From assembly GCF_949987535.1 (NCBI RefSeq), contig NW_026645882.1, forward strand, positions 62,001 to 126,000: a DNA stretch of 64,000 bases, in the 5' to 3' direction. Each line of letters opens with the position of its first letter. The stretch's first letter is position 1. Source of the DNA: Balaenoptera acutorostrata. Lineage: Eukaryota; Chordata; Mammalia; Artiodactyla; Balaenopteridae. The notes below the pieces were generated by a model. That model ran no database searches. It had not been told where the DNA came from and saw only the letters and a program-made list of their open reading frames with translations. Below are positions 1-64,000 of the stretch, piece by piece. The translations under genes were made by a program, and so were the position numbers.

Positions 1-1034
1 TTACATCCCACCCATCAGCGTAGCAAGGCTCCCATTTCTCCATGGCCGGTCCTGCACTTCTGGTTTGGACAATTTTTTCCGCATGGCCCTTTTGCCCGCT
101 GGGAAGCGAGACTTCTTTGGAGCGCTGATTTGCCTTTCCAGGTTGCTTGGTTGGCCAAAAAGGGCGTATGCGTTTTTTCCTCAATATATTCAGGAAAAAA
201 CGCATACGCCCTTTTTGGCCAAGGGCATCATTGTCCACGTTTTGCCGCTTTTCATGTGCTTTCAAGGCGATTCGAATCTACCTCCTGAAATCTGTTTCCT
301 GCAATTCTGCCTTGCTTTCAAAGCCTCTTCGTTGCCTTCCCTTAATATATTTGTGGACGAGAGGTATCATTTAAAACTCTGCAGGTTTGTGAATTGCAGT
401 GCCCCTGAGCTCCATTTTTCAACTCGCTTTTTTGGGAGCTGGCCGCAAAAGCGCAGGATTGCTTCAGGCCCTCTTCTGGTTCTGGGGGGCAGGCTGAGCT
501 TGTGCTTAATTCTTCTTCCTGATGGGAAAATAGAGTGACCTGTGCCTGTCCCAACACCTAGAGCTAGTCTCTCATTGGTTCCCCCTCTTCCCGTTCATCC
601 TCAGGACAAATTGCAACCTGTACGGAACAGGAGGTTAAAGGTGCTGATTCTCCAAGGAGGGAGATGGCTAGTAAATCGGCTGGAATGGCGAACCCGAGCA
701 AAGGAGATGAGAAATGAGGTGCGTTTTAGAAACCTTTCCCGATCACACGGTGTACCATCTTCTGGGTTTCTCATGCCTGTTTTGGACGTAGGAAGATGCC
801 CTTGAACCTGGAGATTGGGACCCATGGGATGGGTACCATGCAGTATTACTTGAAACGGTCTGCGTTGGCTCACCCAACCTCACCGAACCTCTCAGCCCCA
901 AGAGTGTCCACCCTTATGTCTCAATCAGCTGTGGGTCTAGATATGGTCAATCCAGGTTGCATCACAGCCCCTGAACGAATTTTGTAAGAATTTCTCTCTC
1001 TTTCACTGTCTTTGTTTCACGGGTTTTGAAAAGT
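1..1034 (-). repeat. Satellite unit 1 (partial)
   Basis: Cut by the window start. Palindrome at 151-222 with a tip mismatch. Like unit 2 it has GAGATTGGG (one T fewer than units 3-37, near 811) and TTTTGGACG where most later units have TTTTCGACG. Private variants include ACAATTTTTT near 67 and AACGGTCTG near 854. Confidence 0.93.
151..222. repeat. 72-bp palindrome with tip mismatch (unit 1)
   Basis: A C replaces G at 182 in the left arm, close to the centre. Its partner base in the right arm is unchanged. Confidence 0.95.
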
Positions 1035-2792
1035 AATTTATTTTTATAATGGGGTTTAGCTGCTTTTCACGGCTGTGTTTATGCCGCTTTACACCCCCTT
1101 GACTCACTTACAGAAAGATATCAATACATAGGTTTGAAGATTCTTACTAGTCAGATATATTCTTGTGCGGTGAATAGGGGGTGTTGAGTCCAGTTCACTG
1201 AAAAAGGAATAGGTCTTGTCTCTTACATATTGGGTTTATGGAACGGTATCTGAGCTCATTTGAAACCCTTGTTTTATGCATCACCCCACCTCACCTTTCC
1301 CGTTCAGCAGCCATAGTGTGTTTCCTAAACGTGTGACTCTGTTCTGTTTTGTAATTCAGTTCAAGTGTAGCGGTTTTTACATTCCCTCTAGAAGTGATAT
1401 CTTATGATAAGTGTCTTTTTCTGTGTGACTTATTTCACTTAGAATCGTCGTACCTAAATCCACTCATCGTGCTGCTACTAGCTTTATGACGTTGATTTCA
1501 TGGCTGAGTGATATTCCACTGTACATGAGGACCACAACTTCTTTATCCATTTTTCTCTTTCCTAGGATATTTAAGGTGTAATGAAGTGGGGGTTCTTGTC
1601 AACAGAGCAGCCCTAAACTTTGGGTTGCCTGTGTCTTGCTGATTTTTAGTTTTCCCAATTTATACGCCCATGAGTGGAAGTGCCCTATGCTCTCCAAGCT
1701 GTGTTTTTTAGATGTTTCAGAACACACCGTACACTTCTCCAGAGTGGCTGTTGGCAATTTACAACCCACCCATCAGCGTAGCAAGGCTCCCATTTCTCCA
1801 TGGCCGGTCCTGCATTTCTGGTTTGGACACTTTTTTCCGAATGGCCCTTTTACCCGCTGGGAAGCGAGACTTCCTTGGAGCGATGATTGGCCTTTCCAGG
1901 TTGCTTGGTTGGCCAAAAAGGGCGTATGCGTTTTTTCCTGAATATATTCAGGAAAAAACGCATACGCCCTTTTTGGCCAAGGGCATCATTGTCCACGTTT
2001 TGCCGCTTTTCATGTGCTTTCAAGGCGATTCGAATCTACCTCCTGAAATCTGTTTCCTGCAATTCTGCCTTGCTTTCAAAGCCTCTTCGTTGCCTTCCCT
2101 TAATATATTTTTGGACGAGAGGTATCATTTAAAACTCGGCAGGTTTGTGAATTGCAGTGCCCCTGAGCTCCATTTTTCAACTCGCTTTTTTGGGAGCTGG
2201 CCGCAAAAGCGCAGGATTGCTTCAGGCCCTCTTCTGGTTCTGGGGGGCAGGCTGAGCTTGTGCTTAATTCTTCTTCCTGATGGGAAAATAGAGTGACCTG
2301 TGCCTGTCCCAACACCTAGAGCTAGTCTCTCATTGGTTCCCCCTCTTCCCGTTCATCCTCAGGACAAATTGCAACCTGTACGGAACAGGAGGTTAAAGGT
2401 GCTGATTCTCCAAGGAGGGAGATGGCTAGTAAATCGGCTGGAATGGCGAACCCGAGCAAAGGAGATGAGAAATGAGGTGCGTTTTAGAAACCTTTCCCGA
2501 TCACACGGTGTACCATCTTCTGGGTTTCTCATGCCTGTTTTGGACGTAGGAAGATGCCCTTGAACCTGGAGATTGGGACCCATGGGATGGGTACCATGCA
2601 GTATTACTTGAAAGGGTCTGCGTTGGCTCACCCAACCTCACCGAACCTCTCAGCCCCAAGAGTGTCCACCCTTATGTCTCAATCAGCTGTGGGTCTAGAT
2701 ATGGTCAATCCAGGTTGCATCACAGCCCCTGAACGAATTTTGTAAGAATTTCTCTCTCTTTCACTGTCTTTGTTTCACGGGTTTTGAAAAGT
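1035..2792 (-). repeat. Satellite unit 2, 1758 bp
   Basis: Palindrome 1909-1980, perfect. Carries GAGCTCATTT (near 1252), shared only with unit 3, and the T-short GAGATTGGG near 2569, shared with unit 1. Private variants include TTCCTTGGAGCGATG near 1871 and TTTTTGGACGAG near 2107. Confidence 0.93.
1909..1980. repeat. 72-bp perfect palindrome (canonical copy, unit 2)
   Basis: The left arm (1909-1944) is the exact reverse complement of the right arm (1945-1980), with no spacer. The outer ends are TTGGCC/GGCCAA and the centre is CCTGAATATATTCAGG. The next flanking bases (G on both sides) do not pair, so the symmetry stops sharply at 36 bp per arm. It can form a cruciform in DNA or a 36-bp hairpin in RNA. 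It splits sequence that otherwise aligns continuously with L1 ORF2, so it looks inserted; I see no flanking target-site duplication. Identical perfect copies lie in units 2-8, 11, 12, 14-22, 24-31, 33, 34 and 37. Confidence 0.97.
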
Positions 2793-4551
2793 AATTTATT
2801 TTTATAATGGGGTTTAGCTGCTTTTCACGGCTGTGTTTATGCCGCTTTACATCCCCTTGACTCACTTACAGAGAGATATCAATACATAGGTTTGAAGATT
2901 CTTACTAGTCAGATATATTCTTGTGCGGTGAATAGGGGGTGTTGAGTCCAGTTCACTGAAAAAGGAATAGGTCTTGTCTCTTACATATTGGGTTTATGGA
3001 ACGGTATCTGAGCTCATTTGAAACCCTTGTTTTATGCATCACCCCACCTCACCTTTCCCGTTCAGCAGCCATAGTGTGTTTCCTAAACGTGTGACTCTGT
3101 TCTGTTTTGTAATTCAGTTCAAGTGTAGCGGTTTTTACATTCCCTCTAGAAGTGATATCTTATGATAAGTGTCTTTTTCTGTGTGACTTATTTCACTTAG
3201 AATCGTCGTACCTAAATCCACTCATCGTGCTGCTACTAGCTTTATGACGTTGATTTCATGGCTGAGTGATATTCCACTGTACATGAGGACCACAACTTCT
3301 TTATCCATTTTTCTCTTTCCTAGGATATTTAAGGTGTAATGAAGTGGGGGTTCTTGTCAACAGAGCAGCCCTAAACTTTGGGGTGCCTGTGTCTTGCTGC
3401 TTTTTAGTTTTCCCAATTTATACGCCCATGAGTGGAAGTGCCCTGTGCTCTCCAAGCTGTGTTTTTTAGATGTTTCAGAACACACCGTACACTTCTCCAG
3501 AGTGGCTGTTGGCAATTTACATCCCACCCATCAGCTTAGCAAGGCTCCCATTTCTGCAAGGCCGGTCCTGCATTTCTGGTTTGGACACTTTTTTCCGCAT
3601 GGCCCTTTTGCCCGCTGGGAAGCGAGACTTCTTTGGAGCGCTGATTTGCCTTTCCAGGTTGCTGGGTTGGCCAAAAAGGGCGTATGCGTTTTTTCCTGAA
3701 TATATTCAGGAAAAAACGCATACGCCCTTTTTGGCCAAGGGCATCATTGTCCACGTTTTGCCGCTTTTCATGTGCTTTCAAGGCGATTCGAATCTACCTC
3801 CTGAAATCTGTTTCCTGCAATTCTGCCTTGCTTTCAAAGCCTCTTCTTTGCCTTCCCTTAATATATTTGTGGACGAGAGGTATCATTTAAAACTCTGCAA
3901 GTTTGTGAATTGCAGTGCCCCTGAGCTCCATTTCTCAACTCGCTTTTTTGGGAGCTGGCCGCAAAAGCGCAGGATTGCTTCAGGCCCTCTTCTGGTTCTG
4001 GGGGGCAGGCTGAGCTTGTGCTTAATTCTTCTTCCTGATGGGAAAATAGAGTGACCTGTGCCTGTCCCAACACCTAGAGCTAGTCTCTCATTGGTTCCCC
4101 CTCTTCCCGTTCATCCTCAGGACAAATTGCAACCTGTACGGAACAGGAGGTTAAAGGTGCTGATTCTCCAAGGAGGGAGATGGCTAGTAAATCGGCTGGA
4201 ATGGCGAACCCGAGCAAAGGAGATGAGAAATGAGGTGCGTTTTAGAAACCTTTCCCGATCACACGGTGTACCATCTTCTGGGTTTCTCATGCCTGTTTTC
4301 GACGTAGGAAGATGCCCTTGAACCTGGAGATTTGGGACCCATGGGATGGGTACCATGCAGTATTACTTGAAAGGGTCTGCGTTGGCTCACCCAACCTCAC
4401 CGAACCTCTCAGCCCCAAGAGTGTCCACCCTTATGTCTCAATCAGCTGTGGGTCTAGATATGGTCAATCCAGGTTGCATCACAGCCCCTGAACGAAATTT
4501 GTAAGAATTTCTCTCTCTTTCACTGTCTTTGTTTCACGGGTTTTGAAAAGT
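2793..4551 (-). repeat. Satellite unit 3, 1759 bp
   Basis: Palindrome 3667-3738, perfect. Shares GAGCTCATTT with unit 2. Private variants include GCTGCTTTTTAG near 3396, TTTCTGCAAGG near 3551 and GCTGGGTTGG at 3661. Confidence 0.93.
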
Positions 4552-6310
4552 AATTTATTTTTATAATGGGGTTTAGCTGCTTTTCGCGGCTGTGTTTATG
4601 CCGCTTTACACCCCCTTGACTCACTTACAGAGAGATATCAATACATAGGTTTGAAGATTCTTACTAGTCAGATATATTCTTGTGCGGTGAATAGGGGGTG
4701 TTGAGTCCAGTTCACTGAAAAAGGAATAGGTCTTGTCTCTTACATATTGGGTTTATGGAACGGTATCTGAGCTAATTTGAAACCCTTGTTTTATGCATCA
4801 CCCCACCTCACCTTTCCCTTTCAGCAGCCATAGTGTGTTTCCTAAACGTGTGACTCTGTTCTGTTTTGTAATTCAGTTCAAGTGTAGCGGTTTTTACATT
4901 CCCTCTAGAAGTGATATCTTATGATAAGTGTCTTTTTCTGTGTGACTTATTTCACTTAGAATCGTCGTACCTAAATCCACTCATCGTGCTGCTACTAGCC
5001 TTATGACGTGGATTTCATGGCTGAGTGATATTCCATTGTACATGAGGACCACAACTTCTTTATCCATTTTTCTCTTTCCTAGGATATTTAAGGTGTAATG
5101 AAGTGGGGGTTCTTGTCAACAGAGCAGCCCTAAACTTTGGGGTGCCTGTGTCTTGCTGATTTTTAGTTTTCCCAATTTATACGCCCATGAGTGGAAGTGC
5201 CCTATGCTCTCCAAGCTGTGTTTTTTAGATGTTTCAGAACACACCGTACACTTCTCCAGAGTGGCTGTTGGCAATTTACATCCCACCCATCAGCGTAGCA
5301 AGGCTCCCATTTCTCCATGGCCGGTCCTGCATTTCTGGTTTGGACACTTTTTTCCGCATGACCCTTTTGCCCGCTGGGAAACGAGACTTCTTTGGAGCGC
5401 TGATTGGCCTTTCCAGGTTGCTTGGTTGGCCAAAAAGGGCGTATGCGTTTTTTCCTGAATATATTCAGGAAAAAACGCATACGCCCTTTTTGGCCAAGGG
5501 CATCATTGTCCACGTTTTGCCGCTTTTCATGTGCTTTCAAGGCGATTCGAATCTACCTCCTGAAATCTGTTTCCTGCAAGTCTGCCTTGCTTTCAAAGCC
5601 TCTTCGTTGCCTTCCCTTAATATATTTGTGGACGAGAGGTATCATTTAAAACTGTGCAGGTTTGTGAATTGCAGTGCCCCTGAGCTCCATTTTTCAACTC
5701 GCTTTTTTGGGAGCTGGCCGCAAAAGCGCAGGATTGCTTCAGGCCCTCTTCTGGTTCTGGGGGGCAGGCTGAGCTTGTGCTTAATTCTTCTTCCTGATGG
5801 GAAAATAGAGTGACCTGTGCCTGTCCCAACACCTAGAGCTAGTCTCTCATTGGTTCCCCCTCTTCCCGTTCATCCTCAGGACAAATTGCAACCTGTACGG
5901 AACAGGAGGTTAAAGGTGCTGATTCTCCAAGGAGGGAGATGGCTAGTAAATCGGCTGGAATGGCGAACCCGAGCAAAGGAGATGAGAAATGAGGTGCGTT
6001 TTAGAAACCTTTCCCGATCACACGGTGTACCATCTTCTGGGTTTCTCATGCCTGTTTTCGACGTAGGAAGATGCCCTTGAACCTGGAGATTTGGGACCCA
6101 TGGGATGGGTACCATGCAGTATTACTTGAAAGGGTCTGCGTTGGCTCACCCAACCTCACCGAACCTCTCAGCCCCAAGAGTGTCCACCCTTATGTCTCAA
6201 TCAGCTGTGGGTCTAGATATGGTCAATCCAGGTTGCATCACAGCCCCTGAACGAATTTTGTAAGAATTTCTCTCTCTTTCACTGTCTTTGTTTCACGGGT
6301 TTTGAAAAGT
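4552..6310 (-). repeat. Satellite unit 4, 1759 bp
   Basis: Palindrome 5426-5497, perfect. Partner of unit 7 in the 5277-bp trimer. Private TTTTCGCGGC near 4583; CATGACCC and AAACGAG are shared with unit 7. Confidence 0.93.
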
Positions 6311-8069
6311 AATTTATTTTTATAATGGGGTTTAGCTGCTTTTCACGGCTGTGTTTATGCCGCTTTACATCCCCTTGACTCACTTACAGAGAGATATCAA
6401 TACATAGGTTTGAAGATTCTTACTAGTCAGATATATTCTTGTGCGGTGAATAGGGGGTGTTGAGTCCAGTTCACTGAAAAAGGAATAGGTCTTGTCTCTT
6501 ACATATTGGGTTTATGGAACGGTATCTGAGCTAATTTGAAACCCTTGTTTTATGCATCACCCCACCTCACCTTTCCCGTTCAGCAGCCATAGTGTGTTTC
6601 CTAAACGTGTGACTCTGTTCTGTTTTGTAATTCAGTTCAAGTGTAGCGGTTTTTACATTCCCTCTCTAAGTGATATCTTATGATAAGTGTCTTTTTCTGT
6701 GTGACTTATTTCACTTAGAATCGTCGTACCTAAATCCACTCATCGTGCTGCTACTAGCCTTATGACGTGGATTTCATGGCTGAGTGATATTCCATAGTAC
6801 ATGAGGACCACAACTTCTTTATCCATTTTTCTCTTTCCTAGGATATTTAAGGTGTAATGAAGTGGGGGTTCTTGTCAACAGAGCAGCCCTCAACTTTGGG
6901 GTGCCTGTGTCTTGCTGATTTTTAGTTTTCCCAATTTATACGCCCATGAGTGGAAGTGCCCTATGCTCTCCAAGCTGTGTTTTTTAGATGTTTCAGAACA
7001 CACCGTACACTTCTCCAGAGTGGCTGTTGGCAATTTACATCCCACCCATCAGCGTAGCAAGGCTCCCATTTCTCCATGGCCGGTCCTGCATTTCTGGTTT
7101 GGACACTTTTTTCCGCATGGCCCTTTTGCCCGCTGGGAAGCGAGACTTCTTTGGAGCGCTGATTGGCCTTTCCAGGTTGCTTGGTTGGCCAAAAAGGGCG
7201 TATGCGTTTTTTCCTGAATATATTCAGGAAAAAACGCATACGCCCTTTTTGGCCAAGGGCATCATTGTCCACGTTTTGCCGCTTTTCATGTGCTTTCAAG
7301 GCGATTCGAATCTACCTCCTGAAATCTGTTTCCTGCAAGTCTGCCTTGCTTTCAAAGCCTCTTCATTGCCTTCCCTTAATATATTTGTGGACGAGAGGTA
7401 TCATTTAAAACTCTGCAGGTTTGTGAATTGCAGGGCCCCTGAGCTCCATTTTTCAACTCGCTTTTTTGGGAGCTGGCCGCAAAAGCGCAGGATTGCTTCA
7501 GGCCCTCTTCTGGTTCTGGGGGGCAGGCTGAGCTTGTGCTTAATTCTTCTTCCTGATGGGAAAATAGAGTGACCTGTGCCTGTCCCAACACCTAGAGCTA
7601 CTCTCTCATTGGTTCCCCCTCTTCCCGTTCATCCTCAGGACAAATTGCAACCTGTACGGAACAGGAGGTTAAAGGTGCTGATTCTCCAAGGAGGGAGATG
7701 GCTAGTAAATCGGCTGGAATGGCGAACCCGAGCAAAGGAGATGAGAAATGAGGTGCGTTTTAGAAACCTTTCCCGATCACACGGTGTACCATCTTCTGAG
7801 TTTCTCATGCCTGTTTTCGACGTAGGAAGATGCCCTTGAACCTGGAGATTTGGGACCCATGGGATGGGTACCATGCAGTATTACTTGAAAGGGTCTGCGT
7901 TGGCTCACCCAACCTCACCGAACCTCTCAGCCCCAAGAGTGTCCAGCCTTATGTCTCAATCAGCTGTGGGTCTAGATATGGTCAATCCAGGTTGCATCAC
8001 AGCCCCTGAACGAATTTTGTAAGAATTTCTCTCTCTTTCACTGTCTTTGTTTCACGGGTTTTGAAAAGT
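6311..8069 (-). repeat. Satellite unit 5, 1759 bp
   Basis: Palindrome 7185-7256, perfect. Partner of unit 8: CTCTCTAAGTG (6661), CAGGGCCCC, GAGCTACTCTC and GTCCAGCC. Private CCATAGTAC near 6793 and CTTCATTGCC near 7360. Confidence 0.93.
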
Positions 8070-9828
8070 AATTTATTTTTATAATGGGGTTTAGCTGCTT
8101 TTCACGGCTGTGTTTATGCCGCTTTACACCCCCTTGACTCACTTACAGAGAGATATCAATACATAGGTTTGAAGGTTCTTACTAGTCAGATATATTCTTG
8201 TGCGGTGAATAGGGGGTGTTGAGTCCAGTTCACTGAAAAAGGAATAGGTCTTGTCTCTTACATATTGGGTTTATGGAACGGTATCTGAGCTAATTTGAAA
8301 CCCTTGTTTTATGCATCACCCCACCTCACCTTTCCCGTTCAGCAGCCATAGTGTGTTTCCTAAACGTGTGACTCTGTTCTGTTTTGTAATTCAGTTCAAG
8401 TGTAGCGGTTTTTACATTCCCTCTAGAAGTGATATCTTATGATAAGTGTCTTTTTCTGTGTGAATTATTTCACTTAGTATCGTCGTACCTAAATCCACTC
8501 ATCGTGCTGCTACTAGCCTTATGACGTGGATTTCATGGCTGAGTGATATTCCATTGTACATGAGGACCACAACTTCTTTATCCATTTTTCTCTTTCCTAG
8601 GATATTTAAGGTGTAATGAAGTGGGGGTTCTTGTCAACAGAGCAGCCCTCAACTTTGGGGTGCCTGTGTCTTGCTGATTTTTAGTTTTCCCAATTTATAC
8701 GCCCATGAGTGGAAGTGCCCTATGCTCTCCAAGCTGTGTTTTTTAGATGTTTCAGAACACACCGTACACTTCTCCAGGGTGGCTGTTGGCAATTTACATC
8801 CCACCCATCAGCGTAGCAAGGCTCCCATTTCTCCATGGCCGGTCCTGCACTTCTGGTTTGGACACTTTTTTCCGCATGGCCCTTTTGCCCGCTGGGAAGC
8901 GAGACTTCTTTGGAGCGCTGATTGGCCTTTCCAGGTTGCTTGGTTGGCCAAAAAGGGCGTATGCGTTTTTTCCTGAATATATTCAGGAAAAAACGCATAC
9001 GCCCTTTTTGGCCAAGGGCATCATTGTCCACGTTTTGCCGCTTTTCATGTGCTTTCAAGGCGATTCGAATCTACCTCCTGAAATCTGTTTCCTGCAATTC
9101 TGCCTTGCTTTCAAAGCCTCTTCGTTGCCTTCCCTTAATATATTTGTGGACGAGAGGTATCATTTAAAACTCTGCAGGTTTGTGAATTGCAGTGCCCCTG
9201 AGCTCCAATTTTCAACTCGCTTTTTTGGGAGCTGGCCGCAAAAGCGCAGGATTGCTTCAGGCCCTCTTCTGGTTCTGGGGGGCAGGCTGAGCTTGTGCTT
9301 AATTCTTCTTCCTGATGGGAAAATAGAGTGACCTGTGCCTGTCCCAACACCTAGAGCTAGTCTCTCATTGGTTCCCCCTCTTCCCGTTCATCCTCAGGAC
9401 AAATTGCAACCTGTACGGAACAGGAGGTTAAAGGTGCTGATTCTCCAAGGAGGGAGATGGCTAGTAAATCGGCTGGAATGGCGAACCCGAGCAAAGGAGA
9501 TGAGAAATGAGGTGCGTTTTAGAAACCTTTCCCGATCACACGGTGTACCATCTTCTGGGTTTCTCATGCCTGTTTTCGACGTAGGAAGATGCCCTTGAAC
9601 CTGGAGATTTGGGACCCATGGGATGGGTACCATGCAGTATTACTTGAAAGGGTCTGCGTTGGCTCACCCAACCACACCGAACCTCTCAGCCCCAAGAGTG
9701 TCCACCCTTATGTCTCAATCAGCTGTGGGTCTAGATATGGTCAATCCAGGTTGCATCACAGCCCCTGAAGGAATTTTGTAAGAATTTCTCTCTCTTTCAC
9801 TGTCTTTGTTTCACGGGTTTTGAAAAGT
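8070..9828 (-). repeat. Satellite unit 6, 1759 bp
   Basis: Palindrome 8944-9015, perfect. Partner of units 9 and 10: GAAGGTTC, TAGTATCG, CCAGGGTGG, TGCACTTCTGG, CTCCAATTTTC and GAAGGAATTTT. Private TGTGAATTATT near 8459. Confidence 0.93.
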
Positions 9829-11587
9829 AATTTATTTTTATAATGGGGTGTAGCTGCTTTTCACGGCTGTGTTTATGCCGCTTTACATCCCCTTGACTCA
9901 CTTACAGAGAGATATCAATACATAGGTTTGAAGATTCTTACTAGTCAGATATATTCTTGTGCGGTGAATAGGGGGTGTTGAGTCCAGTTCACTGAAAAAG
10001 GAATAGGTCTTGTCTCTTACATATTGGGTTTATGGAACGGTATCTGAGCTAATTTGAAACCCTTGTTTTATGCATCACCCCACCTCACCTTTCCCTTTCA
10101 GCAGCCATAGTGTGTTTCCTAAACGTGTGACTCTGTTCTGTTTTGTAATTCAGTTCAAGTGTAGCGGTTTTTACATTCCCTCTAGAAGTGATATCTTATG
10201 ATAAGTGTCTTTTTCTGTGTGACTTATTTCACTTAGAATCGTCGTACCTAAATCCACTCATCGTGCTGCTACTAGCCTTATGACGTGGATTTCATGGCTG
10301 AGTGATATTCCATTGTACATGAGGACCACAACTTCTTTATCCATTTTTCTCTTTCCTAGGATATTTAAGGTGTAATGAAGTGGGGGTTCTTGTCAACAGA
10401 GCAGCCCTAAACTTTGGGGTGCCTGTGTCTTGCTGATTTTTAGTTTTCCCAATTTATACGCCCATGAGTGGAAGTGCCCTATGCTCTCCAAGCTGTGTTT
10501 TTTAGATGTTTCAGAACACACCGTACACTTCTCCAGAGTGGCTGTTGGCAATTTACATCCCACCCATCAGCGTAGCAAGGCTCCCATTTCTCCATGGCCG
10601 GTCCTGCATTTCTGGTTTGGACACTTTTTTCCGCATGACCCTTTTGCCCGCTGGGAAACGAGACTTCTTTGGAGCGCTGATTGGCCTTTCCAGGTTGCTT
10701 GGTTGGCCAAAAAGGGCGTATGCGTTTTTTCCTGAATATATTCAGGAAAAAACGCATACGCCCTTTTTGGCCAAGGGCATCATTGTCCACGTTTTGCCGC
10801 TTTTCATGTGCTTTCAAGGCGATTCGAATCTACCTCCTGAAATCTGTTTCCTGCAATTCTGCCTTGCTTTCAAAGCCTCTTCGTTGCCTTCCCTTAATAT
10901 ATTTGTGGACGAGAGGTATCATTTAAAACTGTGCAGGTTTGTGAATTGCAGTGCCCCTGAGCTCCATTTTTCAACTCGCTTTTTTGGGAGCTGGCCGCAA
11001 AAGCGCAGGATTGCTTCAGGCCCTCTTCTGGTTCTGGGGGGCAGGCTGAGCTTGTGCTTAATTCTTCTTCCTGATGGGAAAATAGAGTGACCTGTGCCTG
11101 TCCCAACACCTAGAGCTAGTCTCTCATTGGTTCCCCCTCTTCCCGTTCATCCTCAGGACAAATTGCAACCTGTACGGAACAGGAGGTTAAAGGTGCTGAT
11201 TCTCCAAGGAGGGAGATGGCTAGTAAATCGGCTGGAATGGCGAACCCGAGCAAAGGAGATGAGAAATGAGGTGCGTTTTAGAAACCTTTCCCGATCACAC
11301 GGTGTACCATCTTCTGGGTTTCTCATGCCTGTTTTCGACGTAGGAAGATGCCCTTGAACCTGGAGATTTGGGACCCATGGGATGGGTACCATGCAGTATT
11401 ACTTGAAAGGGTCTGCGTTGGCTCACCCAACCTCACCGAACCTCTCAGCCCCAAGAGTGTCCACCCTTATGTCTCAATCAGCTGTGGGTCTAGATATGGT
11501 CAATCCAGGTTGCATCACAGCCCCTGAACGAATTTTGTAAGAATTTCTCTCTCTTTCACTGTCTTTGTTTCACGGGTTTTGAAAAGT
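9829..11587 (-). repeat. Satellite unit 7, 1759 bp
   Basis: Palindrome 10703-10774, perfect. Starts with GGGGTGTAGC, a variant seen elsewhere only in units 10 and 11. The rest matches unit 4. Confidence 0.93.
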
Positions 11588-30935: not shown

Positions 30936-30951
30936 AATTTATTTTTATAAT
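30936..30951 (-). other. L1 A-tail / polyadenylation-signal relic and monomer junction (representative)
   Basis: On the minus strand this A/T-rich stretch contains AATAAA (plus-strand positions 30938-30943) exactly where the 3' end of the L1 copy should lie. Immediately to its left is the 5'-truncated end of the neighbouring L1 unit, so this is the head-to-tail junction. No long homopolymer A tail survives. The equivalent junction begins at 1035, 2793, 4552, 6311 and so on in the other units. The exact junction base could be off by several bases. Confidence 0.55.
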
Positions 30952-52061: not shown

Positions 52062-53827
52062 AATTTATTTTTATAATGGGGTTTAGCTGCTTTACACGGC
52101 TGTGTTTATGCCGCTTTACACCCCCTTGACTCACTTACAGAGAGATATCAATACATAGGTTTGAAGATTCTTACTAGTCAGATATATTCTTGTGCGGTGA
52201 ATAGGGGGTGTTGAGTCCAGTTCACTGAAAAAGGAATAGGTCTTGTCTCTTACATATTGGGTTTATGGAACGGTATCTGAGCTAATTTGAAACCCTTGTT
52301 TTATGCATCACCCCACCTCACCTTTCCCGTTCAGCAGCCATAGTGTGTTTCCTAAACGTGTGACTCTGTTCTGTTTTGCAATCCAGTTCAAGTGTAGCGG
52401 TTTTTACATTCCCTCTAGAAGTGATATCTTATGATAAGTGTCTTTTTCTGTGTGACTTATTTCACTTAGAATCGTCGTACCTAAATCCACTCATCGTGCT
52501 GCTACTAGCCTTATGACGTTGATTTCATGGCTGAGTGATATTCCATTGTACATGAGGACCACAACTTCTTTATCCATTTTTCTCTTTCCTAGGATATTTA
52601 AGGTGTAATGAAGTGGGGGTTCTTGTCAACAGAGCAGCCCTAAACTTTGGGGTGCCTGTGTCTTGCTGATTTTTAGTTTTCCCAATTTATACGCCCATGA
52701 GTGGAAGTGCCCTATGCTCTCCAAGCTGTGTTTTTTAGATGTTTCAGAACACACCGTACACTTCTCCAGAGTGGCTGTTGGCAATTTACATGCCACCCAT
52801 CAGCGTAGCAAGGCTCCCATTCCTCCATGGCCGGTCCTGCATTTCTGGTTTGGACACTTTTTTCCGCATGGCCCTTTTGCCCGCTGGGAAGCGAGACTTC
52901 TTTGGAGCGCTGATTGGCCTTTCCAGGTTGCTTGGTTGGCCAAAAAGGGCGTATGCGTTTTTTCCTGAATATATTCAGGAAAAAACGCATACGCCCTTTT
53001 TGGCCAAGGGCATCATTGTCCACGTTTTGCCGCTTTTCATGTGCTTTCAAGGCGATTCGAATCTACCTCCTGAAATCTGTTTCCTGCAATTCTGCCTTGC
53101 TTTCAAAGCCTCTTCGTTGCCTTCCCTTAATATATTTGTGGACGAGAGGTATCATTTAAAACTCTGCAGGTTTGTGAATTGCAGTGCCCCTGAGCTCCAT
53201 TTTTCAACTCGCTTTTTTGCGAGCTGGCCGCAAAAGCGCAGGATTGCTTCAGGCCCTCTTCTGGTTCTGGGGGGCAGGCTGAGCTTGTGCTTAATTCTTC
53301 TTCCTGATGGGAAAATAGAGTGACCTGTGCCTGTCCCAACACCTAGAGCTACTCTCTCATTGGTTCCCCCTCTTCCCGTTAATCCTCAGGACAAATTGCA
53401 ACCTGTACGGAACAGGAGGTTAAAGGTGCTGATTCTCCAAGGAGGGAGATGGCTAGTAAATCGGCTGGAATGGCGAACCCGAGCAAAGGAGATGAGAAAT
53501 GAGGTGCGTTTTAGAAACCTTTCCCGATCACACGGTGTACCATCTTCTGGGTTTCTCATGCCTGTTTTCGACGTAGGAAGATGCCCTTGAACCTGGAGAT
53601 TTGGGACCCATGGGATGGGTACCATGCACCATGCAGTATTACTTGAAAGGGTCTGCGTTGGCTCACCCAACCTCACCGAACCTCTCAGCCCCAAGAGTGT
53701 CCACCCTTAAGTCTCAATCAGCTGTGGGTCTAGATATGGTCAATCCAGGTTGCATCACAGCCGCTGAACGAATTTTGGAAGAATTTCTCTCTCTTTCACT
53801 GTCTTTGTTTCACGGGTTTTGAAAAGT
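52062..53827 (-). repeat. Satellite unit 31, 1766 bp, type E
   Basis: Palindrome 52936-53007, perfect. Type E: CTTTACACGG, TTGCAATCCAG, ACATGCCACC, CATTCCTCC, TTTTGCGAGC, CGTTAATCC, the 7-bp duplication at 53622-53635, CTTAAGTCTC and TTTTGGAAG. Confidence 0.93.
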
Positions 53828-55586
53828 AATTTATTTTTATAATGGGGTTTAGCTGCTTTACACGGCTGTGTTTATGCCGCTTTACACCCCCTTGACTCAC
53901 TTACAGAGAGATATCAATACATAGGTTTGAAGATTCTTACTAGTCAGATATATTCTTGTGCGGTGAATAGGGGGTGTTGAGTCCAGTTCACTGAAAAAGG
54001 AATAGGTCTTGTCTCTTACATATTGGGTTTATGGAACGGTATCTGAGCTAATTTGAAACCCTTGTTTTATGCATCACCCCACCTCACCTTTCCCGTTCAG
54101 CAGCCATAGTGTGTTTCCTAAACGTGTGACTCTGTTCTGTTTTGCAATCCAGTTCAAGTGTAGCGGTTTTTACATTCCCTCTAGAAGTGATATCTTATGA
54201 TAAGTGTCTTTTTCTGTGTGACTTATTTCACTTAGAATCGTCGTACCTAAATCCACTCATCGTGCTGCTACTAGCCTTATGACGTTGATTTCATGGCTGA
54301 GTGATATTCCATTGTACATGAGGACCACAACTTCTTTATCCATTTTTCTCTTTCCTAGGATATTTAAGGTGTAATGAAGTGGGGGTTCTTGTCAACAGAG
54401 CAGCCCTAAACTTTGGGGTGCCTGTGTCTTGCTGATTTTTAGTTTTCCCAATTTATACGCCCATGAGTGGAAGTGCCCTATGCTCTCCAAGCTGTGTTTT
54501 TTAGATGTTTCAGAACACACCGTACACTTCTCCAGAGTGGCTGTTGGCAATTTACATCCCACCCATCAGCGTAGCAAGGCTCCCATTTCTCCATGGCCGG
54601 TCCTGCATTTCTGGTTTGGACACTTTTTTCCGCATGGCCCTTTTGCCCGCTGGGAAGCGAGACTACTTTGGAGCGCTGATTGGCCTTTCCAGGTTGCTTG
54701 GTTGGCCAAAAAGGGCGTATGCGTTTTTTCCTGAATATATTTAGGAAAAAACGCATACGCCCTTTTTGGCCAAGGGCATCATTGTCCACGTTTTGCCGCT
54801 TTTCATGTGCTTTCAAGGCGATTCGAATCTACCTCCTGAAATCTGTTTCCTGCAATTCTGCCTTGCTTTCAAAGCCTCTTCGTTGCCTTCCCTTAATATA
54901 TTTGTGGACGAGAGGTATCATTTAAAACTCTGCAGGTTTGTGAATTGCAGTGCCCCTGAGCTCCATTTTTCAACTCGCTTTTTTGGGAGCTGGCCGCAAA
55001 AGCGCAGGATTGCTTCAGGCCCTCTTCTGGTTCTGGGGGGCAGGCTGAGCTTGTGCTTAATTCTTCTTCCTGATGGGAAAATAGAGTGACCTGTGCCTGT
55101 CCCAACACCTAGAGCTACTCTCTCATTGGTTCCCCCTCTTCCCGTTCATCCTCAGGACAAATTGCAACCTGTACGGAACAGGAGGTTAAAGGTGCTGATT
55201 CTCCAAGGAGGGAGATGGCTAGTAAATCGGCTGGAATGGCGAACCCGAGCAAAGGAGATGAGAAATGAGGTGCGTTTTAGAAACCTTTCCCGATCACACG
55301 GTGTACCATCTTCTGGGTTTCTCATGCCTGTTTTCGATGTAGGAAGATGCCCTTGAACCTGGAGATTTGGGACCCATGGGATGGGTACCATGCAGTATTA
55401 CTTGAAAGGGTCTGCGTTGGCTCACCCAACCTCACCGAACCTCTCAGCCCCAAGAGTGTCCACCCTTATGTCTCAATCAGCTGTGGGTCTAGATATGGTC
55501 AATCCAGGTTGCATCACAGCCGCTGAACGAATTTTGGAAGAATTTCTCTCTCTTTCACTGTCTTTGTTTCACGGGTTTTGAAAAGT
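53828..55586 (-). repeat. Satellite unit 32, 1759 bp, type F
   Basis: Palindrome 54702-54773 with T at 54742. GAGACTACTTT and TTTTCGATG are shared with unit 35. It starts like units 31 and 34 (CTTTACACGG, TTGCAATCCAG). Confidence 0.93.
54702..54773. repeat. 72-bp palindrome with tip mismatch (unit 32)
   Basis: T replaces C at 54742 (offset 40). The change is shared with unit 35 and creates a TAG stop in the long plus-strand frame. Confidence 0.95.
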
Positions 55587-57352
55587 AATTTATTTTTATA
55601 ATGGGGTTTAGCTGCTTTTCACGGCTGTGTTTATGCCGCTTTACACCCCCTTGACTCACTTACAGAGAGATATCAATACATAGGTTTGAAGATTCTTACT
55701 AGTCAGATATATTCTTGTGCGGTGAATAGGGGGTGTTGAGTCCAGTTCACTGAAAAAGGAATAGGTCTTGTCTCTTACATATTGGGTTTATGGAACGGTA
55801 TCTGAGCTAATTTGAAACCCTTGTTTTATGCATCACCCCACCTCACCTTTCCCGTTCAGCAGCCATAGTGTGTTTCCTAAACGTGTGACTCTGTTCTGTT
55901 TTGTAATTCAGTTCAAGTGTAGCGGTTTTTACATTCCCTCTAGAAGTGATATCTTATGATAAGTGTCTTTTTCTGTGTGACTTATTTCACTTAGAATCGT
56001 CGTACCTAAATCCACTCATCGTGCTGCTACTAGCCTTATGACGTTGATTTCATGGCTGAGTGATATTCCATTGTACATGAGGACCACAACTTCTTTATCC
56101 ATTTTTCTCTTTCCTAGGATATTTAAGGTGTAATGAAGTGGGGGTTCTTGTCAACAGAGCAGCCCTAAAATTTGGGGTGCCTGTGTCTTGCTGATTTTTA
56201 GTTTTCCCAATTTATACGCCCATGAGTGGAAGTGCCCTATGCTCTCCAAGCTGTGTTTTTTAGATGTTTCAGAACACACCGTACACTTCTCCAGAGTGGC
56301 TGTTGGCAATTTACATGCCACCCATCAGCGTAGCAAGGCTCCCATTCCTCCATGGCCGGTCCTGCATTTCTGGTTTGGACACTTTTTTCCGCATGGCCCT
56401 TTTGCCCGCTGGGAAGCGAGACTTCTTTGGAGCGCTGATTGGCCTTTCCAGGTTGCTTGGTTGGCCAAAAAGGGCGTATGCGTTTTTTCCTGAATATATT
56501 CAGGAAAAAACGCATACGCCCTTTTTGGCCAAGGGCATCATTGTCCACGTTTTGCCGCTTTTCATGTGCTTTCAAGGCGATTCGAATCTACCTCCTGAAA
56601 TCTGTTTCCTGCAATTCTGCCTTGCTTTCAAAGCCTCTTCGTTGCCTTCCCTTAATATATTTGTGGACGAGAGGTATCATTTAAAACTCTGCAGGTTTGT
56701 GAATTGCAGTGCCCCTGAGCTCCATTTTTCAACTCGCTTTTTTGCGAGCTGGCCGCAAAAGCGCAGGATTGCTTCAGGCCCTCTTCTGGTTCTGGGGGGC
56801 AGGCTGAGCTTGTGCTTAATTCTTCTTCCTGATGGGAAAATAGAGTGACCTGTGCCTGTCCCAACACCTAGAGCTACTCTCTCATTGGTTCCCCCTCTTC
56901 CCGTTAATCCTCAGGACAAATTGCAACCTGTACGGAACAGGAGGTTAAAGGTGCTGATTCTCCAAGGAGGGAGATGGCTAGTAAATCGGCTGGAATGGCG
57001 AACCCGAGCAAAGGAGATGAGAAATGAGGTGCGTTTTAGAAACCTTTCCCGATCACACGGTGTACCATCTTCTGGGTTTCTCATGCCTGTTTTCGACGTA
57101 GGAAGATGCCCTTGAACCTGGAGATTTGGGACCCATGGGATGGGTACCATGCACCATGCAGTATTACTTGAAAGGGTCTGCGTTGGCTCACCCAACCTCA
57201 CCGAACCTCTCAGCCCCAAGAGTGTCCACCCTTAAGTCTCAATCAGCTGTGGGTCTAGATATGGTCAATCCAGGTTGCATCACAGCCGCTGAACGAATTT
57301 TGGAAGAATTTCTCTCTCTTTCACTGTCTTTGTTTCACGGGTTTTGAAAAGT
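55587..57352 (-). repeat. Satellite unit 33, 1766 bp, type E
   Basis: Palindrome 56461-56532, perfect. 7-bp duplication at 57147-57160. Its left part (CTTTTCACGG, TTGTAATTCAG) differs from unit 31 while its right part matches it. Private CCTAAAATTTGG near 56164. Confidence 0.93.
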
Positions 57353-59118
57353 AATTTATTTTTATAATGGGGTTTAGCTGCTTTACACGGCTGTGTTTAT
57401 GCCGCTTTACACCCCCTTGACTCACTTACAGAGAGATATCAATACATAGGTTTGAAGATTCTTACTAGTCAGATATATTCTTGTGCGGTGAATAGGGGGT
57501 GTTGAGTCCAGTTCACTGAAAAAGGAATAGGTCTTGTCTCTTACATATTGGGTTTATGGAACGGTATCTGAGCTAATTTGAAACCCTTGTTTTATGCATC
57601 ACCCCACCTCACCTTTCCCGTTCAGCAGCCATAGTGTGTTTCCTAAACGTGTGACTCTGTTCTGTTTTGCAATCCAGTTCAAGTGTAGCGGTTTTTACAT
57701 TCCCTCTAGAAGTGATATCTTATGATAAGTGTCTTTTTCTGTGTGACTTATTTCACTTAGAATCGTCGTACCTAAATCCACTCATCGTGCTGCTACTAGC
57801 CTTATGACGTTGATTTCATGGCTGAGTGATATTCCATTGTACATGAGGACCACAACTTCTTTATCCATTTTTCTCTTTCCTAGGATATTTAAGGTGTAAT
57901 GAAGTGGGGGTTCTTGTCAACAGAGCAGCCCTAAACTTTGGGGTGCCTGTGTCTTGCTGATTTTTAGTTTTCCCAATTTATACGCCCATGAGTGGAAGTG
58001 CCCTATGCTCTCCAAGCTGTGTTTTTTAGATGTTTCAGAACACACCGTACACTTCTCCAGAGTGGCTGTTGGCAATTTACATGCCACCCATCAGCGTAGC
58101 AAGGCTCCCATTCCTCCATGGCCGGTCCTGCATTTCTGGTTTGGACACTTTTTTCCGCATGGCCCTTTTGCCCGCTGGGAAGCGAGACTTCTTTGGAGCG
58201 CTGATTGGCCTTTCCAGGTTGCTTGGTTGGCCAAAAAGGGCGTATGCGTTTTTTCCTGAATATATTCAGGAAAAAACGCATACGCCCTTTTTGGCCAAGG
58301 GCATCATTGTCCACGTTTTGCCGCTTTTCATGTGCTTTCAAGGCGATTCGAATCTACCTCCTGAAATCTGTTTCCTGCAATTCTGCCTTGCTTTCAAAGC
58401 CTCTTCGTTGCCTTCCCTTAATATATTTGTGGACGAGAGGTATCATTTAAAACTCTGCAGGTTTGTGAATTGCAGTGCCCCTGAGCTCCATTTTTCAACT
58501 CGCTTTTTTGGGAGCTGGCCGCAAAAGCGCAGGATTGCTTCAGGCCCTCTTCTGGTTCTGGGGGGCAGGCTGAGCTTGTGCTTAATTCTTCTTCCTGATG
58601 GGAAAATAGAGTGACCTGTGCCTGTCCCAACACCTAGAGCTACTCTCTCATTGGTTCCCCCTCTTCCCGTTAATCCTCAGGACAAATTGCAACCTGTACG
58701 GAACAGGAGGTTAAAGGTGCTGATTCTCCAAGGAGGGAGATGGCTAGTAAATCGGCTGGAATGGCGAACCCGAGCAAAGGAGATGAGAAATGAGGTGCGT
58801 TTTAGAAACCTTTCCCGATCACACGGTGTACCATCTTCTGGGTTTCTCATGCCTGTTTTCGACGTAGGAAGATGCCCTTGAACCTGGAGATTTGGGACCC
58901 ATGGGATGGGTACCATGCACCATGCAGTATTACTTGAAAGGGTCTGCGTTGGCTCACCCAACCTCACCGAACCTCTCAGCCCCAAGAGTGTCCACCCTTA
59001 AGTCTCAATCAGCTGTGGGTCTAGATATGGTCAATCCAGGTTGCATCACAGCCGCTGAACGAATTTTGGAAGAATTTCTCTCTCTTTCACTGTCTTTGTT
59101 TCACGGGTTTTGAAAAGT
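57353..59118 (-). repeat. Satellite unit 34, 1766 bp, type E
   Basis: Palindrome 58227-58298, perfect. 7-bp duplication at 58913-58926. Like unit 31 but with the common TTTTGGGAGC. Confidence 0.93.
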
Positions 59119-60877
59119 AATTTATTTTTATAATGGGGTTTAGCTGCTTTTCACGGCTGTGTTTATGCCGCTTTACACCCCCTTGACTCACTTACAGAGA
59201 GATATCAATACATAGTTTTGAAGATTCTTACTAGTCAGATATATTCTTGTGCGGTGAATAGGGGGTGTTGAGTCCAGTTCACTGAAAAAGGAATAGGTCT
59301 TGTCTCTTACATATTGGGTTTATGGAACGGTATCTGAGCTAATTTGAAACCCTTGTTTTATGCATCACCCCACCTCACCTTTCCCGTTCAGCAGCCATAG
59401 TGTGTTTCCTAAACGTGTGACTCTGTTCTGTTTTGTAATTCAGTTCAAGTGTAGCGGTTTTTACATTCCCTCTAGAAGTGATATCTTATGATAAGTGTCT
59501 TTTTCTGTGTGACTTATTTCACTTAGAATCGTCGTACCTAAATCCACTCATCGTGCTGCTACTAGCCTTATGACGTTGATTTCATGGCTGAGTGATATTC
59601 CATTGTACATGAGGACCACAACTTCTTTATCCATTTTTCTCTTTCCTAGGATATTTAAGGTGTAATGAAGTGGGGGTTCTTGTCAACAGAGCAGCCCTAA
59701 ACTTTGGGGTGCCTGTGTCTTGCTGATTTTTAGTTTTCCCAATTTATACGCCCATGAGTGGAAGTGCCCTATGCTCTCCAAGCTGTGTTTTTTAGATGTT
59801 TCAGAACACACCGTACACTTCTCCAGAGTGGCTGTTGGCAATTTACATCCCACCCATCAGCGTAGCAAGGCTCCCATTTCTCCATGGCCGGTCCTGCATT
59901 TCTGGTTTGGACACTTTTTTCCGCATGGCCCTTTTGCCCGCTGGGAAGCGAGACTACTTTGGAGCGCTGATTGGCCTTTCCAGGTTGCTTGGTTGGCCAA
60001 AAAGGGCGTATGCGTTTTTTCCTGAATATATTTAGGAAAAAACGCATACGCCCTTTTTGGCCAAGGGCATCATTGTCCACGTTTTGCCGCTTTTCATGTG
60101 CTTTCAAGGCGATTCGAATCTACCTCCTGAAATCTGTTTCCTGCAATTCTGCCTTGCTTTCAAAGCCTCTTCGTTGCCTTCCCTTAATATATTTGTGGAC
60201 GAGAGGTATCATTTAAAACTCTGCAGGTTTGTGAATTGCAGTGCCCCTGAGCTCCATTTTTCAACTCGCTTTTTTGGGAGCTGGCCGCAAAAGCGCAGGA
60301 TTGCTTCAGGCCCTCTTCTGGTTCTGGGGGGCAGGCTGAGCTTGTGCTTAATTCTTCTTCCTGATGGGAAAATAGAGTGACCTGTGCCTGTCCCAACACC
60401 TAGAGCTAGTCTCTCATTGGTTCCCCCTCTTCCCGTTCATCCTCAGGACAAATTGCAACCTGTACGGAACAGGAGGTTAAAGGTGCTGATTCTCCAAGGA
60501 GGGAGATGGCTAGTAAATCGGCTGGAATGGCGAACCCGAGCAAAGGAGATGAGAAATGAGGTGCGTTTTAGAAACCTTTCCCGATCACACGGTGTACCAT
60601 CTTCTGGGTTTCTCATGCCTGTTTTCGATGTAGGAAGATGCCCTTGAACCTGGAGATTTGGGACCCATGGGATGGGTACCATGCAGTATTACTTGAAAGG
60701 GTCTGCGTTGGCTCACCCAACCTCACCGAACCTCTCAGCCCCAAGAGTGTCCACCCTTATGTCTCAATCAGCTGTGGGTCTAGATATGGTCAATCCAGGT
60801 TGCATCACAGCCGCTGAACGAATTTTGGAAGAATTTCTCTCTCTTTCACTGTCTTTGTTTCACGGGTTTTGAAAAGT
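59119..60877 (-). repeat. Satellite unit 35, 1759 bp, type F
   Basis: Palindrome 59993-60064 with T at 60033. Partner of unit 32 at 5291 bp. Private CATAGTTTTGAAG near 59211. Confidence 0.93.
59993..60064. repeat. 72-bp palindrome with tip mismatch (unit 35)
   Basis: T at 60033 is the same change as in unit 32, which lies 5291 bp upstream. Confidence 0.95.
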
Positions 60878-62636
60878 AATTTATTTTTATAATGGGGTTT
60901 AGCTGCTTTTCACGGCTGTGTTTATGCCGCTTTACACCCCCTTGACTCACTTACAGAGAGATATCAATACATAGGTTTGAAGATTCTTACTAGTCAGATA
61001 TATTCTTGTGCGGTGAATAGGGGGTGTTGAGTCCAGTTCACTGAAAAAGGAATAGGTCTTGTCTCTTACATATTGGGTTTATGGAACGGTATCTGAGCTA
61101 ATTTGAAACCCTTGTTTTATGCATCACCCCACCTCACCTTTCCCGTTCAGCAGCCATAGTGTGTTTCCTAAACGTGTGACTCTGTTCTGTTTTGTAATTC
61201 AGTTCAAGTGTAGCGGTTTTTACATTCCCTCTAGAAGTGATATCTTATGATAAGTGTCTTTTTCTGTGTGACTTATTTCACTTAGAATCGTCGTACCTAA
61301 ATCCACTCATCGTGCTGCTACTAGCCTTATGACGTTGATTTCATGGCTGAGTGATATTCCATTGTACATGAGGACCACAACTTCTTTATCCATTTTTCTC
61401 TTTCCTAGGATATTTAAGGTGTAATGAAGTGGGGGTTCTTGTCAACAGAGCAGCCCTAAACTTTGGGGTGCCTGTGTCTTGCTGATTTTTAGTTTTCCCA
61501 ATTTATACGCCCATGAGTGGAAGTGCCCTATGCTCTCCAAGCTGTGTTTTTTAGATGTTTCAGAACACACCGTACAGTTCTCCAGAGTGGCTGTTGGCAA
61601 TTTACATCCCACCCATCAGCGTAGCAAGGCTCCCATTTCTCCATGGCCGATCCTGCATTTCTGGTTTGGACACTTTTTTCCGCATGGCCCTTTTGCCCGC
61701 TGGGAAGCGAGACTTCTTTGGAGCGCTGATTTGCCTTTCCAGGTTGCTTGGTTGGCCAAAAAGGGCGTATGCGTTTTTTCCTGAATATATTCTGGAAAAA
61801 ACGCATACGCCCTTTTTGGCCAAGGGCATCATTGTCCACGTTTTGCCGCTTTTCATGTGCTTTCAAGGCGATTCGAATCTACCTCCTGAAATCTGTTTCC
61901 TGCAATTCTGCCTTGCTTTCAAAGCCTCTTCGTTGCCTTCCCTTAATACATTTGTGGACGAGAGGTATCATTTAAAACTCTGCAGGTTTGTGAATTGCAG
62001 TGCCCCTGAGCTCCATTTTTCAAATCGCTTTTTTGGGAGCTGGCCGCAAAAGCGCAGGATTGCTTCAGGCCCTCTTCTGGTTCTGGGGGGCAGGCTGAGC
62101 TTGTGGTTAATTCTTCTTCCTGATGGGAAAATAGAGTGACCTGTGCCTGTCCCAACACCTAGAGCTAGTCTCTCATTGGTTCCCCCTCTTCCCGTTCATC
62201 CTCAGGACAAATTGCAACCTGTACGGAACAGGAGGTTAAAGGTGCTGATTCTCCAAGGAGGGAGATGGCTAGTAAATCGGCTGGAATGGCGAACCCGAGC
62301 CAAGGAGATGAGAAATGAGGTGCGTTTTAGAAACCTTTCCCGATCACACGGTGTACCATCTTCTGGGTTTCTCATGCCTGTTTTCGACGTAGGAAGATGC
62401 CCTTGAACCTGGAGATTTGGGACCCATGGGATGGGTACCATGCAGTATTACTTGAAAGGGTCTGCGTTGGCTCACCCAACCTCACCGAACCTCTCAGCCC
62501 CAAGAGTGTCCACCCTTATGTCTCAATCAGCTGTGGGTCTAGATATGGTCAATCCAGGTTGCATCACAGCCCCTGAACGAATTTTGTAAGAATTTCTCTC
62601 TCTTTCACTGTCTTTGTTTCACGGGTTTTGAAAAGT
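60878..62636 (-). repeat. Satellite unit 36, 1759 bp, type B
   Basis: Palindrome 61752-61823 with T at 61793. Type B markers reappear (TTAATACATTT, GTGGTTAATT, GAGCCAAGG). Private ACAGTTCTCC near 61574, GGCCGATCC near 61645 and CAAATCGC near 62021. Confidence 0.93.
61752..61823. repeat. 72-bp palindrome with tip mismatch (unit 36)
   Basis: T replaces A at 61793 (offset 41), the position that became C in unit 13. Confidence 0.95.
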
Positions 62637-64000
62637 AATTTATTTTTATAATGGGGTTTAGCTGCTTATCACGGCTGTGTTTATGCCGCTTTACACCCCC
62701 TTGACTCACTTACAGAGAGATATCAATACATAGGTTTGAAGATTCTTACTAGTCAGATATATTCTTGTTCGGTGAATAGGGGGTGTTGAGTCCAGTTCAC
62801 TGAAAAAGGAATAGGTCTTGTCTCTTACATATTGGGTTTATGGAACGGTATCTGAGCTAATTTGAAACCCTTGTTTTATGCATCACCCCACCTCACCTTT
62901 CCCGTTCAGCAGCCATAGTGTGTTTTCTAAACGTGTGACTCTGTTCTGTTTTGTAATTCAGTTCAAGTGTAGCGGTTTTTACATTCCCTCTCGAAGTGAT
63001 ATCTTATGATAAGTGTCTTTTTTTTGTGACTTATTTCACTTAGAATCGTCGTACCTAAATCCACTCATCGTGCTGCTACTAGCCTTATGACGTTGATTTC
63101 ATGGCTGAGTGATATTCCATTGTACATGAGGACCACAACTTCTTTATCCATTTTTCTCTTTCCTAGGATATTTAAGGTGTAATGAAGTGGGGGTTCTTGT
63201 CAACAGAGCAGCCCTAAATTTTGGGGTGCCTGTGTCTTGCTGATTTTTAGTTTTCCCAATTCATACGCCCATGAGTGGAAGTGCCCTATGCTCTCCAAGC
63301 TGTGTTTTTTAGATGTTTCAGAACACACCGTACACTTCTCCAGAGTGGCTGTTGGCAATGTACATCCCACCCATCAGCGTAGCAAGGCTCCCATTTCTCC
63401 ATGGCCGGTCCTGCATTTCTGGTTTGGACACTTTTTTCCGCATGGCCCTTTTGCCCGCTGGGAAGTGAGGCTACTTTGGAGCGCTGATTGGCCTTTCCAG
63501 GTTGCTTGGTTGGCCAAAAAGGGCGTATGCGTTTTTTCCTGAATATATTCAGGAAAAAACGCATACGCCCTTTTTGGCCAAGGGCATCATTGTCCACGTT
63601 TTGCCGCTTTTCATGTGCTTTCAAGGCGATTCGAATCTACCTCCTGAAATCTGTTTCCTGCAATTCTGCCTTGCTTTCAAAGCCTCTTCGTTGCCTTCCC
63701 TTAATATATTTGTGGACGAGAGGTATCATTTAAAACTCTGCAGGTTTGTGAATTGCAGTGCCCCTGAGCTCCATTTTTCAACTCGCTTTTTTGGGAGCTG
63801 GCCGCAAAAGCGCAGGATTGCTTCAGGCCCTCTTCTGGTTCTGGGGGGCAGGCTGAGCTTGTGCTTAATTCTTCTTCCTGATGGGAAAATAGAGTGACCT
63901 GTGCCTGTCCCCACACCTAGAGCTAGTCTCTCATTGGTTCCCCCTCTTCCCGTTCATCCTCAGGACAAATTGCAACCTGTACGGTACAGGAGGTTAAAGG
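62637..64000 (-). repeat. Satellite unit 37 (partial), type C
   Basis: Cut by the window end. Palindrome 63510-63581, perfect. Type C markers including GCTTATCACGG, CTTGTTCGGTG, the T8 run near 63016 and GTACGGTACAGG. It has GGCTGAGTGAT instead of the C-type GGCTGACTGAT, and private CTCTCGAAGTG near 62989. Confidence 0.92.

Follow-up and report, generated by a model that had tools for sequence, protein, structure and literature searches.

Why does a long palindrome without a spacer recur, nearly perfect, from monomer to monomer of a whale satellite? The window studied here is the whole stretch of 64,000 nucleotides from the minke whale Balaenoptera acutorostrata, positions 62,001–126,000 of the 369,042-bp contig C416 in an assembly of 2.77 Gb. 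It is a tandem array of satellite monomers of about 1759 bp, and each palindrome in it spans 72 bp with two 36-bp arms. On balance we favor the view that the palindrome descends from a mariner-type miniature inverted-repeat transposable element (MITE) that inserted into L1 sequence, and that its arms were later corrected against each other. The origin from a MITE within L1, taken alone, is very probable. The arm-to-arm correction after insertion has moderate support.

An exact scan of the window finds 29 perfect spacer-less palindromes. A scan tolerating up to 25 mismatches brings the total to 37, the other eight having one substitution each. The copies are spaced 1758, 1759 or 1766 bp apart. 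An earlier note on this DNA had given the same total with the same division, and a spacing of about 1759 bp; both are reproduced. It had also described a symmetry that ends abruptly, with no comparable dyad elsewhere in the monomer, and this holds as well: beyond the arms the dyad matches fall to chance level, and the only other inverted-repeat pairs in the one monomer scanned are two distant ones, 75% and 78% complementary. The features are as follows; the palindromes have no strand, the perfect ones were returned by both scans, and those with one mismatch by the mismatch-tolerant scan.

1..64000, forward strand, tandem array of ~1759-bp satellite monomers, inside contig C416
151..222, palindrome, one mismatch
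1909..1980, palindrome, perfect
3667..3738, palindrome, perfect
5426..5497, palindrome, perfect
7185..7256, palindrome, perfect
8944..9015, palindrome, perfect
10703..10774, palindrome, perfect
12462..12533, palindrome, perfect
14221..14292, palindrome, one mismatch
15980..16051, palindrome, one mismatch
17739..17810, palindrome, perfect
19498..19569, palindrome, perfect
21256..21327, palindrome, one mismatch
23015..23086, palindrome, perfect
24774..24845, palindrome, perfect
26533..26604, palindrome, perfect
28292..28363, palindrome, perfect
30051..30122, palindrome, perfect
31810..31881, palindrome, perfect
33568..33639, palindrome, perfect
35327..35398, palindrome, perfect
37086..37157, palindrome, perfect
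38844..38915, palindrome, one mismatch
40603..40674, palindrome, perfect
42369..42440, palindrome, perfect
44127..44198, palindrome, perfect
45886..45957, palindrome, perfect
47652..47723, palindrome, perfect
49411..49482, palindrome, perfect
51177..51248, palindrome, perfect
52936..53007, palindrome, perfect
54702..54773, palindrome, one mismatch
56461..56532, palindrome, perfect
58227..58298, palindrome, perfect
59993..60064, palindrome, one mismatch
61752..61823, palindrome, one mismatch
63510..63581, palindrome, perfect

The sequence left of the palindrome is 65–76% identical to L1-like pieces in six of the 11 loci sampled outside C416, and three of the L1 matches stop 12 bp ahead of the palindrome. 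That the monomer is partly derived from L1 was already known; the interruption of that L1 by the palindrome appears to be new. On the right side, the colinear L1 diagonal that an 84-bp insertion would predict gives 23 matches in 40 positions, and only one of 5000 shuffled flanks equals this within 3 bases. For this flank it is the position on the diagonal that counts. One representative monomer is divided thus.

3090..3654, forward strand, L1-derived left part (consensus about 304–868), with the identity just given
3655..3738, forward strand, block of 84 bp with no counterpart in L1, made up of 12 bp and the 72-bp palindrome, putative remnant of the MITE insertion, with colinear L1 on either side and an 82-bp excision in the relic L093
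3739..3827, forward strand, L1-derived part resumed after the insertion, placed by the colinear diagonal and not significant as a free alignment

Five L1 copies among the sampled loci, of 95–96% identity, span the site and lack the block. Since four of these built the L1 consensus used, just one of the five is independent of it.

The source of the block was sought with a mariner-type MITE of ruminants, 84 nt long. The query gave 2175 first-look candidates in the assembly, and the best 40, scored on the better strand and read as L046–L085, match it at 94–97% along its full extent or almost so. The ends of the 40 copies resemble TATTGGG...CCCAATA, with at most three letters different per end. 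Their consensus comprises two near-mirrored arms, a short center and TA at both ends. In the 39 copies of 84 bp, the one 83-bp copy being excluded from the mismatch count, the arms mismatch at 2–6 of 42 pairs, and the mean divergence is 5.3%, a figure that the family as a whole exceeds because the copies read were the best-scoring. No copy of the MITE turned up in a 139-kb sample of non-satellite DNA. Aligned with the MITE consensus, the satellite palindrome scores 68, and in a post hoc comparison one in 50,000 palindromes made from shuffled arms did as well. The inverted terminal repeats are like the ones of a MITE family that this genome contains. The satellite arms lie further from the MITE consensus than the MITE copies do, yet they are identical to each other.

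Further evidence comes from copies outside the arrays. Loci L086–L101 are 16 places picked by eye among the 100 matches listed, of 603, for the arm pattern, and L102–L121 are 20 places picked by eye among the matches listed for arm patterns. The left flank of L093, on C13, is equally near to L1 (194/251) and to the satellite (187/244). Its core is a 70-bp near-palindrome with identical 33-bp arms, followed by CCCA as at the MITE end, and its arm agrees with the MITE arm at 27 of 35 positions and differs at eight. The best four of 264 excisions in L093 each remove 82 bp, raising the score from 271 to 303 with the L1 ungapped; this is the size expected of an 80-bp element plus its TA duplication. 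Judged by size alone, the 82 bp of L093 and the 84 bp of the satellite both fit a mariner-type MITE (80 bp plus a 2-bp TA duplication). In L093 neither the left end nor the TA letters can be recognized, and no flanking TA occurs at the expected places in either the satellite consensus or this relic. The idea that L093 and L094 might be MITEs dispersed outside satellite sequence was rejected, as L093 sits in the same L1 site as the satellite. L094 keeps, as judged by eye, only a short similar right flank.

The relics suggest a ladder of states, each present in both arms. L093 carries GGGCGTATGGG, a run of five T and CCTTAA; L096 carries GCG, five T and CCTGAA; the current satellite carries GCG, six T and CCTGAA. 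Placed in order from the MITE consensus through L093 to L096 and the current satellite, the core in both arms goes from GTTCGTTCGGG to GGGCGTATGGG to GGGCGTATGCG. The motif CCRTAA, where R marks a difference between the MITE arms, becomes CCTTAA and then CCTGAA, and the T run grows from five to six in both arms. L089, whose center is shortened, has a run of five T in one arm and of five A in the other. A third locus with the five-T run, seen in the match listing alone, is at C2:145,292,272.

Substitutions mirrored between the arms are found in three of the 36 copies chosen by arm patterns. The complementary pairs lie at mirror sites 14/59 in L091, 26/47 in L095 and 28/45 in L115, and none is at CpG. 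States with only one arm changed exist also: L090, a member of the chromosome cluster that includes L091, is changed at 59 alone, and L116–L121 are changed at 28 alone. Separately, in L114 (C25:67195854) the mirror sites 28 and 45 are both changed, by T>C and A>C, and pairing is not restored. The three pairs fall among 10 haplotypes with at least two substitutions and no indel. When positions are shuffled within base type, the probability of three or more is 0.0054, a value that is indicative only because the haplotypes are partly related and most were picked by eye from left-arm listings. The haplotype test left out the loci whose arms are truncated or that contain indels (L086, L089, L093, L094, L096–L098, L100, L101, L111 and L113), the array copies with indels and the exact repeats of L116.

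Within the array, the mean identity among 35 aligned monomers is 98.7%, and the palindromes are near-perfect mostly because the monomers are homogenized. Among 58 monomers of contig C416, polymorphic columns number 7 of 72 in the palindrome versus 274 of 1663 outside it (Fisher p = 0.14); of all windows of 72 bp, 17% are equally quiet. Exceptional conservation of the palindrome was rejected on these counts, which, together with the high identity, indicate that its preservation in the array requires no cause beyond homogenization. The earlier note held that so many near-perfect copies need explaining. The copies are real, but their preservation is less unusual than it claimed, and the instability paradox it raised was overdrawn, as palindromes well below about 150 bp are tolerated. 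Recent amplification, one of the explanations it offered, stands, in that homogenization accounts for the likeness of the copies in the array. For another, conversion between the arms, the mirrored changes outside the main arrays give moderate support over longer times, and the arrays themselves give none. For the last, selection for a structure, there is no positive evidence, the variability not being significantly lowered. The source favored here, a mariner MITE within the L1-derived portion of the monomer, was not among its proposals.

Genome-wide, 60 of the 85 array copies sampled hold perfect palindromes (47/68, 10/12 and 3/5). Across the assembly, a 29-mer arm pattern allowed at most two mismatches is matched 69,936 times in forward and 69,836 times in reverse orientation, which we take as about 70,000 palindromes. 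The exact 29-mer occurs in at least two places, on C15 among the matches listed and in L093. The satellite is present, where read, in 12 of 26 other sampled contigs shorter than 1 Mb, and all 12 contain the palindrome; copies within contigs that are tens to hundreds of Mb long contain it too. Searching DNA with the palindrome as query returned no match, probably an effect of the skipping of common words. Pattern scans of viral and prokaryote contigs were empty, and phage records offered no lead.

The following course of events is proposed. A mariner-type MITE of about 80 bp, with hardly any sequence between its two inverted terminal repeats, would have inserted into the 3′ region of an L1. The L1 insertion, its size and the MITE family with matching arms are observed. 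Such an element is nearly palindromic from the outset, which would explain the abrupt limits of the symmetry within an otherwise asymmetric monomer. The segment of L1 and MITE would later have been incorporated in the ~1759-bp monomer and amplified to about 70,000 copies. After the insertion the arms would change together, a mutation in one arm being sometimes copied to the opposite arm; the mirrored differences between arms are observed. The copying would most likely proceed by template switching mediated by a hairpin or cruciform (quasi-palindrome correction), in which the polymerase copies one arm from the other through that structure. The corrected monomer could then spread by unequal exchange and satellite homogenization. 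How the arms are copied, and when this took place with respect to the amplification, is what we infer. For the broader proposal, that a captured MITE hairpin is a self-correcting palindrome whose lasting changes are copied to the other arm, so that its letters drift without selection on sequence, we put the chances at even.

Several observations weigh against this course of events. The eight window mismatches represent six distinct changes, and none is mirrored in the opposite arm. None of the 85 array palindromes bears a mirrored pair; the 25 imperfect ones have one-arm substitutions or indels. Mirrored pairs are absent from seven of the 10 haplotypes, and L091 and L115 bear additional one-arm changes. 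The limits on the haplotype test belong here also. The polarity of the ladder, as the sequences suggest it, depends on the closeness of L093 to L1 and to one MITE end, and the step from the MITE consensus to L093 (five changes within the 33-bp core, in both arms) could represent an inherited MITE subfamily. The shuffle tests are post hoc because the MITE was considered after the arms had been seen. As a free local alignment to L1 the right flank does not reach significance (237 of 1000 shuffles), and the picture at the L1 site is not entirely clean: three weaker matches of L031 end about 20 bp past the site, and the match of L006 is split about 20–30 bp past it.

The inherited-subfamily possibility leads to an alternative that shares the origin in L1 and dispenses with correction. 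The MITE source would have been a subfamily of perfect palindromes, and the arms would be identical through recent amplification. The likeness of monomers within arrays and the lack of mirrored changes there are what it predicts. Against it stand the differences that L093, L096 and the current satellite show in both arms (G21C, CCTTAA to CCTGAA, five T to six), the mirrored double substitutions at three loci, and outer ends that are by now asymmetric around a core that is still symmetric, and we regard it as possible but unlikely. If selection maintained a cruciform in the DNA or a hairpin in the RNA, such as the precursor of a small RNA, the mirrored changes would be compensatory mutations. 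They do restore pairing, the palindrome core with 10-bp flanks is predicted to fold as RNA at −65.2 kcal/mol (z = −13.5), and the MITE consensus is identical at 48 of 59 positions to the precursor of bta-miR-2285az given in PMC6424900. Such selection is nevertheless improbable, given that the variability of the palindrome is not significantly lower than that of its monomer, that 25 of the 85 array copies are imperfect, and that all 23 listed Rfam matches are below gathering scores. MicroRNA membership by Rfam was rejected on the same scores, and the matches are read as driven by the perfect stem. A CENP-B box was likewise rejected; the best sites have two mismatches to the motif.

Two accounts dispense with the MITE. 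Template-switch or fold-back errors are generally known to make perfect palindromes without spacers, and one such event could have formed the palindrome de novo. The 82-bp insertion and CCCA end of L093, and the resemblance of the arms to a MITE family of the same genome, make this very improbable. An assembly artifact is scarcely credible: arrays are hard to assemble, and small palindrome indels do occur in L002, L032, L106, L107 and L111, but the palindrome is found in every one of the 12 satellite-bearing contigs sampled and in the very long contigs as well.

Other repeats were noted around the satellite. In the window between 40603 and 59993, a 7-bp insertion, ACCATGC, is present in six monomers, each 1766 bp long; they mostly alternate with units of 1758–1759 bp, which suggests a local higher-order pattern. 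Near contig ends, many copies are spaced 5644–5677 bp apart (C19:93789759-93852232, C2:4644-51313 and C5:151953531-151959201), and this spacing is perhaps that of a second, larger tandem unit made of satellite sequence. The copies read on C2 and C19, namely L100, L101, L097 and L098, retain the left part of the satellite and a single palindrome arm. At C3:91458351-91461406 there are three arm matches, 1519 and 1510 bp apart, less than the standard monomer, and the one read, L088, is 86.7% like the consensus. On the same contig as the palindrome satellite, L028 (C416:360001-369000) is a 422-bp tandem repeat with 93% matches and degenerate TTAGGG blocks, which we take to resemble the heavy satellite of baleen whales.

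If the proposed history is true, an abundant whale satellite is a fossil in three layers, L1, mariner MITE and tandem amplification, whose order of events can be read. With its ~70,000 copies and isolated relics it would offer a natural experiment in the mutation and repair of a palindrome in a mammal, and the satellite would be linked to the type of element behind the miR-2284/2285 hairpins of ruminants. The findings also suggest a mariner type in a baleen whale; in the accessible part of a 2012 survey (PMC3517439) toothed whales are the sole cetaceans listed.

The hairpins invite comparison with the bovine miR-2284/miR-2285 family. Three of its precursors, given in PMC6424900, align nearly end to end with the MITE consensus, with 48, 48 and 44 of 59 positions identical. 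In cattle and buffalo these hairpins are expressed. Compared with the palindrome directly, two of these three precursors are above chance (35, 10 and 6561 of 10,000 shuffles as good). The summed scores of seven bovine mature small RNAs and of the three precursors are reached by 55 and 24 of 10,000 shuffles, respectively, and that of four unrelated precursors by 287 of 10,000. As a side observation, the MITE family of L046–L085 is similar to the bovine precursors, and its dispersed hairpins could encode whale small RNAs. MADE1, the MITE behind mir-548, is an 80-bp palindromic mariner element and thus alike in kind. It was rejected as the source, its arm similarity to the satellite palindrome not being significant (1754 of 20,000 shuffles as good).

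The satellite itself is presumably the common cetacean satellite of Arnason and co-workers, whose monomer is about 1.76 kb long. Its origin from L1 was reportedly described by Kapitonov, Holmquist and Jurka in 1998. The monomers here, at 1758–1766 bp, agree with that length. A long tandem monomer similar to the 3′ region of L1 has been described for the cetacean satellite in a review (PMC9659126), and that homology is also found here. In the portions of the literature covered, no description of a palindrome or mariner insertion in the cetacean satellite was found; Arnason 1992 and Kapitonov 1998 were outside that scope, so absence from print is not established.

The MITE family presumably belongs with Mariner1_BT. 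Oliveira et al. 2012 (PMC3517439) describe Mariner1_BT from ruminants, from toothed whales and from leaf-nosed bats, and the motif TTGGCC is not found in the main text of that paper as available. MITE copies of 80 bp and of this type occur in the present genome, and the copy captured by the satellite differs from them in its changed arms and degraded ends.

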